From the NCBI GenBank assembly GCA_002391465.1, contig DGFC01000068.1, forward strand, positions 1 to 14,754: a DNA stretch of 14,754 bases, in the 5' to 3' direction. Both the position numbers and the translations under genes were made by a program. Below are positions 4,201-6,853 of the stretch, in pieces. The stretch's first letter is position 1. Each line of letters starts with the position of its first letter. A model generated the notes under the pieces. That model was not told the origin of the DNA, did not search any database, and worked only from the letters and a program-made list of their open reading frames with translations. The DNA is from Firmicutes bacterium UBA3910 (lineage in GTDB: Bacteria > Bacillota > Limnochordia > Darwinibacteriales > Darwinibacteriaceae).

Positions 4201-4232
4201 TAAAGAAAAAGCGGGCTCCTCAGGAGGAACCC
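4201..4232 (-). terminator. Rho-independent terminator of sigK
   Basis: On the minus strand GGGTTCCT pairs with AGGAGCCC around a 4-nt loop (4213-4232), followed by GCTTTTTCTTT. The hairpin contains the sigK stop codon (4220-4222), so the transcript ends right at the gene's end. Confidence 0.85.
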
Positions 4233-4576
4233 ATTTCACTTAAGAGTTTGCCCAATGCCTTTTTCTCAATGCGTGAGACATAGGAGCGGGAAATCCCCAG
4301 CTGTCTACCAATCTGCCTTTGGGTCAGCCGTTCCCTATTCCCCAAGCCAAAGCGCAGTTCCAACACTAGGCGTTCCCGCTTAGTAAGGCAGCTTAGCTTG
4401 TCGGCAAGTTTTGTCCGATCCAGGCGCAGCACCACCGAATCCACAACCTCATCCCGCTCGGAGCTGAGAATATCCATAAGGGTTATCTCATTGCCCTCCC
4501 GATCACAGCCAATGGGATCAAATAGGTTAACCTCTTTGCGGCTGCGTTTGGTGGAGCGCAGGTGCATCAAAATCTC
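4220..4576 (-). CDS. sigK: sigK 3' half: regions 3 and 4 of sigma-K
   Basis: C-terminal part of the late mother-cell sigma factor, not independently expressed as far as the sequence shows. It begins EILMHLRSTKRSRKE, continues with the typical NLFDPIGCDREGNEITLMDIL, and ends with region 4 (LTKRERLVLELRFGL, then the helix-turn-helix LTQRQIGRQLGISRSYVSRIEKKAL) that binds -35 boxes. There is no good ribosome-binding site; a TTG at 4568-4570 opens the frame only by chance. The sequence upstream belongs to the recombinase gene. Joined to the other half after removal of 1,932 bp, it restores the order YAARC-NENEILMHL, the spacing normal for sigma-K. It ends in its own terminator. Confidence 0.95.
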   Translation of the reverse strand, partial: EILMHLRSTKRSRKEVNLFDPIGCDREGNEITLMDILSSERDEVVDSVVLRLDRTKLADKLSCLTKRERLVLELRFGLGNRERLTQRQIGRQLGISRSYVSRIEKKALGKLLSEMGSS

Positions 4577-4594
4577 AATTTCACTGTCAAAAGG
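4576..4594 (-). repeat. Right junction of the sigK element: core repeat plus att arm
   Basis: Reading the minus strand, the 15-nt arm CCTTTTGACAGTGAA (4580-4594) leads into the core TGAAATTG (4583-4576) and then sigK coding sequence (GAG ATT TTG ATG). The core recurs as TGAAAATG at 6515-6508, in the same orientation and the same codon phase. The arm recurs inverted at 6489-6503 with 14/15 matches. The stop codon TGA of the recombinase (4587-4589) lies inside the arm. Confidence 0.85.
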
Positions 4595-5723
4595 TTTTCA
4601 CGACGAATTGGCCGCCTTCGCCCACTAGTATCTCTTGAACGAAAATGCGCAAAAGCTCTCGCCGTTCCAGTTCCCCCTTTGGAGCAGGAAAATGAGCTGT
4701 GTTCCCCTCTGTGCAGAACCAAGCCCACACCTTTTCATCGAGGACCGCTTGGGAGACACGCAAACCACAACCAACGCCAGGCTCCTCGCTGTAAACGGCA
4801 CTATTCCCCCACAGCCGCCCTTTCATGGGAGCGCCGCAGGAGCTACAGCGCAGAAGACCGCTCAACAAGTAACGTGGCCCATTACCCGCGGAGCGCCGCC
4901 TAGACTGAGCGAGGAGCAGTTGGCTCCGGGCGAACGTTAAACGGTCTATGATCGCGGGACAGGGAATCAGAATCCATTCTTCCTGTGGTCTCAAGCGTAC
5001 CTTGCCTACAGAAGCATCCCATTTATTCTGATAGAACTCACCGATGTAGGTACGGTTGGCCAAGATCTGCCTCACAACCTGGCGATGCCATTTGGGCGCC
5101 CCCCGCTTAGTGGGTATTCCGGCAGAAGTCAAAGCCCTTGCTATACCGGCCATACCCCTTATGCCGGGGGGAGGATTGAGAAACCAGGCGAATATCTGAC
5201 ACACAATACGTGCCTCGGTATGATTGATCACCAACTGTTCACGATCAGAATCAAAATCATAACCGTAGATAGAAAAATCCCGCAGCACCCTGCCCTGCCT
5301 TGCCTTCTCCCTGCGGCCACGGCACATGCGCTCCGTAATTTTCGCCTTTTCAAATTCGGAAATGGCGCCCCGGAGAGCGTAAAAGAGGTTCCCTTCCGGC
5401 GTCTTACTGTAATCTCCGTTCACAAAACACAGCTCAACGCCTAGTCGCTCCCATTCCTCAGTTAAGAGCAGTTGATGGAGAAGCTTACGGGAAAGGCGGT
5501 CCGGATCGAGGCAGATCACTGTGGAAATGCGGCCGACTCCAATCTCCTGCCGCAGTTCTTCCAGGGCGGGACGGTTGAGGGTTTCGCCTGATACCCCTTC
5601 ATCGGAAAATACGAGCACATCTTCTCCCTTGGCCATTTCCTTACAGGCCCGGATCTGAGCCGCTATGCCAAAGCCGTGTTTAGCCTGTTCTTCAGTACTC
5701 ACACGGGCATAAATAGCGATCAA
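4587..5723 (-). CDS. spoIVCA: Serine recombinase for sigK rearrangement, compact SpoIVCA-like
   Basis: Site-specific recombinase inferred to excise the sigK element in the mother cell. From the TTG at 5721-5723 (chosen because GAGGGGG lies about 8 nt upstream; a TTG at 5744 is possible) it has 378 aa. Resolvase catalytic domain about 1-135: YARVSTEEQ with nucleophile S9, SDEGVSGE (40-47), DPDRLSR with R76/R79, and EFEKAKITERMCRGR. Recombinase domain about 150-280 (YGYDFD, then GIARALTSAGIPTKRG and RQILANRTYIGEF). Zinc-ribbon remnant from 286: LLSGLLRCSSCGAPM with C293 and C296, then C319; the usual fourth cysteine is not obvious. Only about 15 residues (336-351) stand where relatives have a long coiled coil, so it is shorter than the usual 450-550 aa. 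The ORF ends inside the att arm. Confidence 0.93.
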   Translation of the reverse strand: MIAIYARVSTEEQAKHGFGIAAQIRACKEMAKGEDVLVFSDEGVSGETLNRPALEELRQEIGVGRISTVICLDPDRLSRKLLHQLLLTEEWERLGVELCFVNGDYSKTPEGNLFYALRGAISEFEKAKITERMCRGRREKARQGRVLRDFSIYGYDFDSDREQLVINHTEARIVCQIFAWFLNPPPGIRGMAGIARALTSAGIPTKRGAPKWHRQVVRQILANRTYIGEFYQNKWDASVGKVRLRPQEEWILIPCPAIIDRLTFARSQLLLAQSRRRSAGNGPRYLLSGLLRCSSCGAPMKGRLWGNSAVYSEEPGVGCGLRVSQAVLDEKVWAWFCTEGNTAHFPAPKGELERRELLRIFVQEILVGEGGQFVVKTF

Positions 5724-5759
5724 ACCAGCCACCCCCTCAGGCAATATTCCGCCGCTTGA

Positions 5760-5767
5760 AATCTATG
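5760..5767 (-). promoter_or_regulatory. Candidate sigma-E-type -10 of the recombinase gene
   Basis: On the minus strand CATAGATT matches 6/8 of the sigma-E -10 consensus and shares CATAGA with the better box before sigK. The position fits: a start site near 5753, ahead of the ribosome-binding site at about 5732-5738. The -35 region 14-15 nt upstream is poor (about 3/7), so this is only a candidate. Confidence 0.3.
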
Positions 5768-5785
5768 CCTGCGGAACCATTTCCA

Positions 5786-5794
5786 TGTTATAAT
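5786..5794 (+). promoter_or_regulatory. Extended -10 promoter of pgmB
   Basis: TGT followed by TATAAT (5789-5794) is a consensus extended -10 box for vegetative RNA polymerase. No good -35 hexamer is present at 17 nt; a TTGAAA at 5756-5761 is 27 nt away, too far. The AGGAGG ribosome-binding site and ATG follow within 30 nt. It points away from the recombinase gene. Confidence 0.6.
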
Positions 5795-5821
5795 GAATGG
5801 GCACATAAGGAGGCAGGGATT

Positions 5822-6496
5822 ATGAAACTGGCAATTTTTGATCTAGACGGTGTAATCGTAGACACGGCAAAATACCACTTCCTAGCCTGGAAGCGATTAG
5901 CTGCTATGCTGGGTATTTCCTTCACAGAAGAGGATAACGAACGACTGAAGGGCGTAAGCCGGGTGCGTTCTTTAGAGATAGTTCTAGAGCTGGGTGGACT
6001 GGAAAAATCCCAGACGGAGATGGAAGAGCTGGCCCAACTTAAGAACACCTGGTACGTGGACTACATTAACCAGCTCACTGCAGAGGAAATTCTACCGGGG
6101 GTTCTGTCTTTTTTGAGACTGCTGGATACAGAAGGTATAAAAACGGCACTCTGTTCTGCCAGCAAGAATGCACCACTGATTTTGAACAAGCTCGGACTCG
6201 CTTCCAGCTTTGCTGTTGTGGTAGATGGTAATTCTGTAAAGAAAGCAAAGCCCGATCCAGAAGGATTTCTGCTCGCTGCCGAACGACTCGGTGTTGAGCC
6301 TCAACAGGCCGTGGTATTCGAAGATGCGACAGCGGGTGTTGAAGCGGCTAAGCGGGCGGGGATGCCCGTTGTGGGAATCGGCGAGCCCGACACGTTAGCA
6401 GATGCGGATTTGATCCTACCGGGCTTTGGGGATGTAAACCAGAGGGAACTCCTCGAGAAACTGAAGCAATTAGTTCAGGCTAAAATTTCCCTTTGA
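5822..6496 (+). CDS. pgmB: Beta-phosphoglucomutase, HAD superfamily
   Basis: Cytoplasmic enzyme interconverting beta-glucose 1-phosphate and glucose 6-phosphate, used in maltose, trehalose or kojibiose breakdown by phosphorylases. From the ATG at 5822 (AGGAGG upstream) it has 224 aa, the family length. Motif I FDLDGVIVDT gives nucleophile D7 and acid/base D9; AKYHFLAWK and LKGVSR (R47) are the cap and substrate signatures; motif II CSASKNAP (S112-N116); K143 in KAKPDP; motif IV FEDATAGVEAA with E167 and D168. These match the well-studied lactococcal enzyme closely, so activity looks intact. It is the sole cargo of the sigK element and is transcribed away from the recombinase. Its stop TGA lies in the left att arm. 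A related sugar-phosphatase specificity is possible. Confidence 0.92.
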   Translation: MKLAIFDLDGVIVDTAKYHFLAWKRLAAMLGISFTEEDNERLKGVSRVRSLEIVLELGGLEKSQTEMEELAQLKNTWYVDYINQLTAEEILPGVLSFLRLLDTEGIKTALCSASKNAPLILNKLGLASSFAVVVDGNSVKKAKPDPEGFLLAAERLGVEPQQAVVFEDATAGVEAAKRAGMPVVGIGEPDTLADADLILPGFGDVNQRELLEKLKQLVQAKISL

Positions 6497-6853
6497 CAGT
6501 GAATTAACATTTTCATTGCACCGGGCGGCGTAAGTTGCCAGGCGGGTCTTTTTCTGGGGATCGAAGGTATTGATCGCTTTGATCAGCCCGATCACGCCAA
6601 TGGAGATCAGGTCTTCGTTGTCTTCCCCCGTATTTCCGAATTTCTTTACTATATGGGCGACCAGACGAAGATTGCGCTCAATAAGTATGTTCCGAGCCTC
6701 TTCGTCTCCCGATTCCTTGCGCAGCAGCAGCTCCCGCTCTTCCTCGGGACGGAGCGGTTTTGGAAAAGCCCCACCCCCGGTCACAAACGATGCCAGTACT
6801 CCCACGCCGTCAACGAGCCAAGTAACCAAAGCACTCAGCAATGCAGGAAACAC
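6470..6853 (-). CDS. sigK: sigK 5' half: pro-sequence and region 2 of pro-sigma-K
   Basis: N-terminal part of the late mother-cell sigma factor. It starts with a hydrophobic pro-sequence (VFPALLSALVTWLVDGVGVL) before AFPKPL, then EEERELLLRKESGDEEARNILIERNLRLVAHIVKKF and region 2 (TGEDNEDLISIGVIGLIKA, then TRLATYAARC). After NEN the frame leaves the sigma-factor sequence and runs 10 further codons (from VNSLSK) in the element to a stop at 6470. A GTG at 6865 abuts the AGGGGG ribosome-binding site, so the GTG at 6851-6853, 11 nt from it, is the likelier start and gives a pro-sequence close to the B. subtilis length. True sigK sequence ends at 6509; joined to 4576 the product is 233 aa. The pro-sequence suggests cleavage by a SpoIVFB-like membrane protease. 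Confidence 0.95.
   Translation of the reverse strand: MFPALLSALVTWLVDGVGVLASFVTGGGAFPKPLRPEEERELLLRKESGDEEARNILIERNLRLVAHIVKKFGNTGEDNEDLISIGVIGLIKAINTFDPQKKTRLATYAARCNENVNSLSKGNFSLN
6489..6515 (-). repeat. Left junction of the sigK element: core repeat plus att arm
   Basis: Reading the minus strand, sigK codons TGC AAT GAA AAT lead through the core TGAAAATG (6515-6508) into TTAA and the arm TTCACTGTCAAAGGG (6503-6489). The arm is the reverse complement of the arm at 4580-4594 with one mismatch. The pgmB stop codon (6494-6496) lies inside it. Confidence 0.85.

Follow-up and report, generated by a model that had tools for sequence, protein, structure and literature searches.

A skin-type element of two or three genes divides sigK in Darwinibacteriaceae and is predicted to be excised by its own truncated serine recombinase

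How might a predicted spore-former restore a sigma factor gene that lies in two pieces? The question is raised by sigK in a 14,754-nucleotide stretch of DNA from Firmicutes bacterium UBA3910, an entire contig (G000:C64) of a 1.90-Mb metagenome-assembled genome (MAG) that is 75.7% complete; we refer to the whole stretch as the window. Here sigK is cut between ..RC(I)EN and EILMHL by a 1,932-bp insert that carries two genes, a serine recombinase of the SpoIVCA clade and a divergent pgmB. From the sequences of the window and its relatives we consider it fairly probable that the insert is a reduced skin-type element whose own truncated recombinase, of the SpoIVCA clade, would cut it out in the sporulating mother cell, likely without a recombination directionality factor (RDF). 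The features concerned are the following, with the attachment (att) sites placed by inverted repeat I1 and a comparison of att sites.

4220..4576, minus strand: sigK 3' part, region 4 (EILMHL.. to the stop; NCBIfam PRK05803, 154.6 bits; Pfam Sigma70_r4)
4561..4594, minus strand: attR (inner arm CCTTTTGACAGTGAAATT, outer arm of sigK codons; central dinucleotide 4576-4575, GA)
4587..5744, minus strand: serine recombinase (385-aa frame from TTG 5744; database gene call P0253, 381 aa from 5732; Resolvase and Recombinase domains by Pfam/NCBIfam and alignment A1)
5822..6496, plus strand: pgmB, beta-phosphoglucomutase of 224 aa, divergent from the recombinase, its 3' end within the attL inner arm (TIGR01990, 239.8 bits, cut-off 189.4)
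6489..6522, minus strand: attL (outer arm of sigK codons, inner arm TTAATTCACTGTCAAAGGG; central dinucleotide 6508-6507, GT)
6509..6853, minus strand: sigK 5' part, from the GTG start to the crossover, the start of the 233-aa join (NCBIfam PRK05803/TIGR02846; Pfam Sigma70_r2)

The two sigK parts are co-linear on the minus strand. The 5' part runs from GTG 6853 to the codons RC-N-E-N, with an open frame that continues inside the element as far as 6470, and the 3' part runs from ..EILMHL (4576) to 4220. The best models for both are SigK (PRK05803, 154.5 bits for the 5' part and 154.6 for the 3' part; TIGR02846, 154.2 and 153.4), with scores below the whole-protein cut-offs, as would be expected of half a protein. 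Deleting 6508..4577 (1,932 bp) fuses the parts in frame into a 233-aa protein from GTG 6853, reading ..YAARCNENEILMHLRSTKR.. across the join. A first reading of the window, here called the original prediction, had described two sigK halves on one strand with the recombinase and pgmB between them, and a 233-aa product once 1,932 bp are removed; the model matches and the computed join agree with it on both counts. It had also named a second intact sigK as something to look for: with the joined SigK as query, none was found in the 75.7%-complete assembly, where the runner-up match is a 52% paralogue, presumably sigE.

The joined SigK was searched against 60 genomes, including the window's own, and the loci were then fetched, covering 22 genomes of the window's family; the available text of PMC11932165 describes this family, DTU010, as proposed under the name Darwinibacteriaceae and as occurring in biogas processes. 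sigK is split in 21 of these 22 genomes, which are uncultured biogas MAGs of predicted spore-formers, and 19 have both halves on one contig. The split is incompletely assembled in G006 (5' half followed by a GH65 gene at the contig end) and G019 (halves on two contigs). The G003 locus encodes all but the first residue of P0136, the N-half protein of Candidatus Darwinibacter acetoxidans; the family and class names of the G genomes were deduced from P0136, a listed contig and a paper. The only intact sigK of the family, in G007, carries no scar and reads IENEILMHL, as in the join. A one-piece match at SigK level (58-67% identity) occurs in 33 of the 38 genomes from the same order or class, and the joined-SigK search found none in the other five (G022, G025, G027, G029, G046). 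Relatives with an uninterrupted gene, which the original prediction had called for, are therefore at hand, and in G007 the gene is intact at that very site.

The recombinase and pgmB are present in each of the 19 complete elements, and 15 add a GH65 gene (765-833 aa) downstream of pgmB; the elements of the window, G004, G005 and G010 are without it. Complete elements measure 1,618-1,632 bp (n = 3), 1,932 bp (the window) and 3,962-4,408 bp (n = 15, with GH65). The window's element had been called close to minimal, which holds good, and three relatives are smaller still (1.62-1.63 kb). Tested with the L034 protein, GH65 has maltose phosphorylase (1h54, E 6.3e-240) as its nearest solved relative; the cargo fits with a sugar-phosphorylase operon. 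We rejected a classical defective prophage: known genes fill all 19 complete elements except for 23-396 bp each (23-144 bp in the 1.6-kb elements), leaving no room for phage genes. The GH65 protein of G011 (L042:1634-4135; 833 aa) is longer than its relatives and matches its profile in two overlapping Pfam stretches, 1-238 and 192-371, which suggests an internal duplication.

The ends of the element form a 34-nt inverted repeat that is 71% complementary (4561-4594 and 6489-6522). Because sigK and the element each supply half of either end, two further sites can be reconstructed: the sigK flanks give attB and the inner ends give attP. The window attP is dyad-symmetric, its arms agreeing at 15 of 18 positions, compared with a mean of 5.0 and a maximum of 11 for displaced centres. 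Across the 19 complete elements the attP arms agree at 9-15 of 18 positions, and the true centre exceeds all displaced centres in 17; G010 loses to a displaced centre and G016 ties. The symmetry axis, together with the 18 other fully assembled relatives, puts the predicted crossover at a GA dinucleotide. GA occurs at both junctions in 18 of the 19 complete elements and at all four partial junctions (G006, two of G019 and contig L071). The TGAAAWTG repeats of the original prediction are a real 8-bp direct repeat; they make up the smaller part of the signal, with the crossover predicted at or just 3' of the last repeat base. Database proteins of the split N-half type point the same way: the 59 top-listed of 4,323 matches (P0123-P0181) all have E or D at the crossover residue, with codons starting GA, although a few of them end too soon for it to be certain that they are split.

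The recombinase carries Resolvase (PF00239) followed by Recombinase (PF07508) in Pfam, and the active serine S12 and R10 are invariant in alignment A1, as are many other catalytic-domain residues. Canonical large serine recombinases have a four-Cys Zn ribbon with an inserted coiled coil, a dyad-symmetric attP and identical central dinucleotides. The window enzyme has a degenerate Zn ribbon that keeps three of the four ribbon Cys (by eye) and no coiled coil, and so is a truncated derivative; its attP is dyad-symmetric, and its central dinucleotides differ (GT/GA), those of the other 18 elements being identical. Two of the 19 enzymes, in the window and G002 (L033), have 380-385 aa, with the coiled coil gone and the Zn ribbon decayed to three Cys. 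The other 17 have about 275-296 aa and stop at the end of the Recombinase domain, with neither coiled coil nor Zn ribbon. A start motif was readable at 42 of 54 outside recombinase loci, and the count covers these; 41 of the enzymes have 489-503 residues from that motif and one runs off its contig. A family-like database recombinase of 456 aa with its first residues missing (P0283) has a three-Cys Zn ribbon and seems to retain a coiled-coil-like stretch on reading its sequence, an apparent intermediate. The long form occurs in two separate lineages, and the Zn domain has therefore probably disappeared on more than one occasion. Among 45 listed database relatives of at least 64% that cover the N-terminus, drawn from the best 120 of 254 matches, 37 fall in the 260-319-residue classes, six in 380-399, and one in 460-479 (P0283); one is a fragment. 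That the short recombinases are assembly artefacts was rejected, as forms of about 280 aa recur in database clusters on contigs of up to 2.33 and 3.27 Mb (P0254, P0284).

The recombinase stop codon lies past the crossover, within sigK DNA, in 16 of the 19 elements (e.g. L034:6190-6201). Excision would therefore alter the C-terminus of the enzyme in the circle, possibly a self-limiting step. A predicted structure of the L034 recombinase (predicted local distance difference test 73, predicted template modelling score 0.46) is good mainly in the recombinase domain (RD); its Foldseek matches are serine integrases (YokA, 9dxh; phiC31 N-terminal domain plus RD, 4bqq), and the model adds little past domain identity. 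Full-length serine integrases of 488 and 496 aa, 46-50% to the window's enzyme, occur in G007 (L052, G007:C254) and G015 (L053, G015:C28), with no sigK on the stretches read.

Both trees were made by a quick method with the Shimodaira-Hasegawa-like approximate likelihood-ratio test (SH-aLRT) as sole support. The host tree was built from SigK, YqeG, YqeH and ECF-S with 20 family rows (all but G006 and G019) and nine outgroup rows; in it G007 nests among the split genomes within a starred branch of 16 rows. The simplest account is an ancestral split that G007 has lost. Outside sigK, G007 has a GH65 gene and pieces of pgmB (L057, L058), and its sole recombinase match is an unlinked full-length integrase. 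The recombinase tree, with L052 and L053 set as outgroup and eight fetched rows (L104-L111) left out, places the 19 family rows in one clade (99, starred) among SpoIVCA-type rows, and the 1.6-kb group (98, starred) is separate from the rest (96, starred), as in the host tree. Horizontal hitch-hiking was rejected, as the two trees agree in their main groups. A frame next to these G007 genes (L057, L058) reads like an amylase.

The available text of PMC6957869 reports that the B. subtilis skin requires Skr, an RDF of 64 aa encoded by a gene that overlaps, in a different frame, the spoIVCA start. By regular expression (MxVxxIxG..DK.I.DCYxYL..YRxE), a Skr-type open reading frame (ORF) precedes the SpoIVCA-type recombinase in 34 of the 42 outside relatives, and four of the eight misses (L120, L122, L130, L134) resemble it by eye. 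At the 19 family loci no Skr-type ORF overlaps the recombinase. A hidden overlapping RDF as in B. subtilis was rejected, the longest alternative-frame ORFs at the 19 recombinase starts having 3-93 aa and no shared sequence by eye. A profile of the non-overlapping part of Skr gave nothing better than E 0.068 in the 22 family genomes; the same profile found matches in all six control genomes, two of which (L082, L095) are outside the profile. In the model published in PMC10754689, as far as its available text goes, the coiled coil keeps the integrase inhibited on attL and attR, and the RDF releases it; deleting the coiled coil left LI integrase acting on both site pairs about equally (about 1.6% and 2.2%) and killed phiC31 integrase. 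Serine integrase domains are described in PMC3783163 (available text). The laboratory LI derivative has the domain make-up of the 380-385-aa forms (catalytic domain, RD and Zn domain, no coiled coil); its deletion is artificial and its activity weak, and the family forms of about 280 aa go further, without the Zn domain (PMC10754689, available text). By analogy the family recombinases look like the natural counterpart of a coiled-coil-deleted integrase, and we infer that they are likely to excise without a helper.

When the recombinase would be made is suggested by three predicted promoter elements.

5764..5767, minus strand: CATA box upstream of the recombinase, predicted mother-cell (sigmaE/sigmaK-type) -10 element; CATA in 19/19 elements
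5786..5794, plus strand: predicted extended -10 promoter of pgmB, TGTTATAAT; TGNTATAAT in 19/19 elements
6891..6894, minus strand: CATA box, predicted sigK promoter (GCACA..CATAGAAT); CATA upstream of sigK in 21/21 family loci, by eye and with no statistical control

The pgmB-facing TGNTATAAT and the recombinase-facing CATA lie 26-30 nt apart in 19 of 19 elements (shuffled sequences, mean 0.30 and maximum 4 of 19), in a gap between the first conserved codons of the two genes of 109-122 bp (232 in G002). In growing cells, sigK would be off and the sigmaA-type extended -10 promoter would drive pgmB and, in most relatives, the maltose-phosphorylase-like gene. In the mother cell, the sigmaE/K-type CATA promoter would switch the recombinase on, and the enzyme, having no coiled coil, would recombine attL with attR directly at GA; sigK would be restored and the cargo freed as a circle. 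The forespore would retain the element. In such a scheme transcription alone would exert control.

Purifying selection acts strongly on the recombinase and on both halves of sigK. In nine pairs (seven for GH65) the ratio of nonsynonymous to synonymous substitution rates (dN/dS) comes to about 0.01-0.08 in the sigK halves, 0.05-0.10 in the recombinase and 0.06-0.15 in pgmB and GH65. Several pairs have a saturated dS, and for these the figure is an upper bound with dS taken as 2.5. SpoIVA is present in all 22 family genomes and SpoIIID in 21.

Several observations weigh against excision as proposed. The window's own genome, which is incomplete, gave no SpoIIID match. In three genomes (G004, G005, G015; L035, L036, L046) there is no ATG, GTG or TTG at the usual recombinase start and the frame is open from CTG (by eye); with CTG only, and a TAA just upstream in G005 and G015, the true start is unsure. 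The pgmB of G012 has an in-frame TAG. A or P replaces E or D at the crossover residue in 10 of 30 lower-ranked split-type N halves, which are probably other insertion types. A search for excised circles in viral_contigs gave no match to the family-consensus attP pattern, a pattern that would miss the window's own site. Among the 120 database SigK proteins listed as best, the highest match to the window's join is no more than 79%; the idea that some of them are joins from split species was rejected, as P0005 is G007 (100% over 217 aa), P0003 is 90% to G007 and P0004 is 83% to G001. The promoters are predictions from sequence motifs.

The plainest difficulty concerns the window itself, where the central dinucleotide is GT in attL and GA in attR, the only mismatch among the 19 complete elements. 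The original prediction had inferred a working element; this goes further than the sequences do, above all for the window's copy. That the element of the window's lineage is locked by the GT change (or misassembled there), with the element of sister strains working, we regard as about as likely as not. A mismatched central dinucleotide would be expected to block joining, and the closest database N half to the window's (P0123, 131 aa) differs from it, start residue aside, at two residues, both in the attL core (I to N and D to V; window 6505-6516); P0123 has Asp at the crossover, so its codon begins GA. On the other side, the blocking rule is carried over from the integrase field and the base call comes from the assembly alone. 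The window's own copy may thus be blocked in this strain, or the consensus may be wrong at that spot, which weakens the case for a working element in the window, not in the family.

For the family as a whole, a judgement separate from that on the window's copy, it is improbable that the element is dead, with an inactive recombinase, sigK in two useless pieces and lineages that no longer need SigK. The truncated recombinase, the GT/GA mismatch, the missing standard start codons and the stop in G012 pgmB would fit such decay, and LI integrase without its coiled coil is only about 2% active and phiC31 integrase dead, so the family enzyme could be weak or dead. Against this stand the strong purifying selection on the sigK halves and the recombinase in nine pairs, the invariance of R10, S12 and many catalytic residues, the conserved att arms and GA, and the retention of SpoIVA and SpoIIID. 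The two-protein sigma factor SigO/RsoA of B. subtilis gives a precedent for two separately made halves that come together in trans while the DNA stays as it is; we think this hardly credible here, as the cut falls inside sigma region 2 (the Pfam match ends at 56 of 71 positions), the N-half tails past the att arm vary in length and sequence, and the join restores IENEILMHL as in the intact G007. A more serious rival keeps excision as proposed and adds a diverged or host-encoded RDF, not Skr and outside the element, that sets direction and timing. Such a diverged RDF may lie elsewhere in the genome, since RDFs are small and diverse and a profile of one type can miss others, and among elements with a reported RDF the available texts have skinCd, the B. 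subtilis skin, SPbeta and gin each needing one. We nevertheless hold it rather unlikely: the 1.6-kb elements consist of two genes and 23-144 uncovered bp, the coiled coil, target of the RDF in the published model (available text), is gone, as is the Zn domain in most copies, and the Skr profile gave nothing credible in the 22 family genomes yet matched six of six controls.

Excision of a reduced skin-type element by its own enzyme, the reading we prefer, has close parallels. The Bacillus subtilis skin (SpoIVCA and Skr; PMC6957869, PMC4191935, available texts) targets the same gene; Bacillus-type skins use the same codon (IEN-E) and GA in the eight Bacilli attL sites compared, and the B. tequilensis recombinase is homologous to the window's (45-47%). 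The Bacillus skin is a defective prophage whose recombinase has 500 aa and is overlapped by the 64-aa RDF Skr (same texts), whereas the family elements have no phage genes, no Skr, a recombinase of 275-385 aa and sugar-metabolism genes. The recombinase points toward the sigK 5' half in 11 Bacilli loci and toward the 3' half in the family, as in L087 and L089. In Clostridioides difficile sigK is likewise interrupted by a serine-recombinase element, skinCd (CD1231 and the RDF CD1234), excised in the mother cell; unlike the family element it has 19 genes, another sigK site, an independent insertion, a required RDF and a constitutive recombinase (PMC5025042, available text). The gin element in gerE of Bacillus cereus ATCC10987 also intervenes in a sporulation gene and has no phage genes, but it spans 28.6 kb, carries three recombinases, requires the RDF GirX and lies in a different gene (PMC5595907, available text). 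SpoIVCA-type integrases of phages and prophage contigs (IMG/VR contigs; Alicyclobacillus phage MMB025, PMC13141910) are 46-61% homologous; those contigs differ from the family elements in being mostly phage-size, with a full-length integrase where readable and mostly a Skr-like ORF. Their presence in phages and viral contigs suggests that the ancestor was a sigK-targeting phage. The original prediction of a skin-type element is thus upheld by the SpoIVCA-clade recombinase, the sigK codon shared with the Bacillus-type elements examined and the att-like ends. By target, codon and recombinase clade, as read from sequence, the insert classes as a Bacillus-type sigK-intervening element, departing from that form in phage genes and Skr.

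We give even weight to a fuller version of the excision reading, in which a phage integrase has become a two-domain, RDF-free developmental excisase. Its direction would be set by loss of the coiled coil and then of the Zn domain, with mother-cell transcription the sole switch; the germline would keep a maltose-phosphorylase/beta-phosphoglucomutase operon in sigK that the mother cell deletes on turning SigK on. If true, metabolic genes would be divided between soma and germline within as little as 1.62 kb. The element series shows how far a developmentally excised element can shrink (to 1.62 kb), and the natural series of about 470, 380 and 280 aa, along which a serine integrase seems to lose its coiled coil and then its Zn domain together with the RDF, makes the model of coiled-coil inhibition and RDF release testable with evolved enzymes rather than laboratory deletions. 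An excision-prone serine recombinase of about 280 aa would be a small tool. The survey also adds a lineage of uncultured biogas bacteria to those with skin-type elements, and links sugar genes with sporulation through their place in the genome. In the literature searched, with subscription journals and preprints outside its scope, we found no paper bringing a sigK skin element together with phosphoglucomutase; among the papers listed, none is by title on this family's elements or (12 of 18 listed) on natural truncated large serine recombinases, and for small intervening elements of sigK the listing gave a C. tetani paper.

Elsewhere in the window, a DUF3796 gene is followed directly by a small HTH_3 regulator on the plus strand (9470-10045), an apparent two-gene unit.

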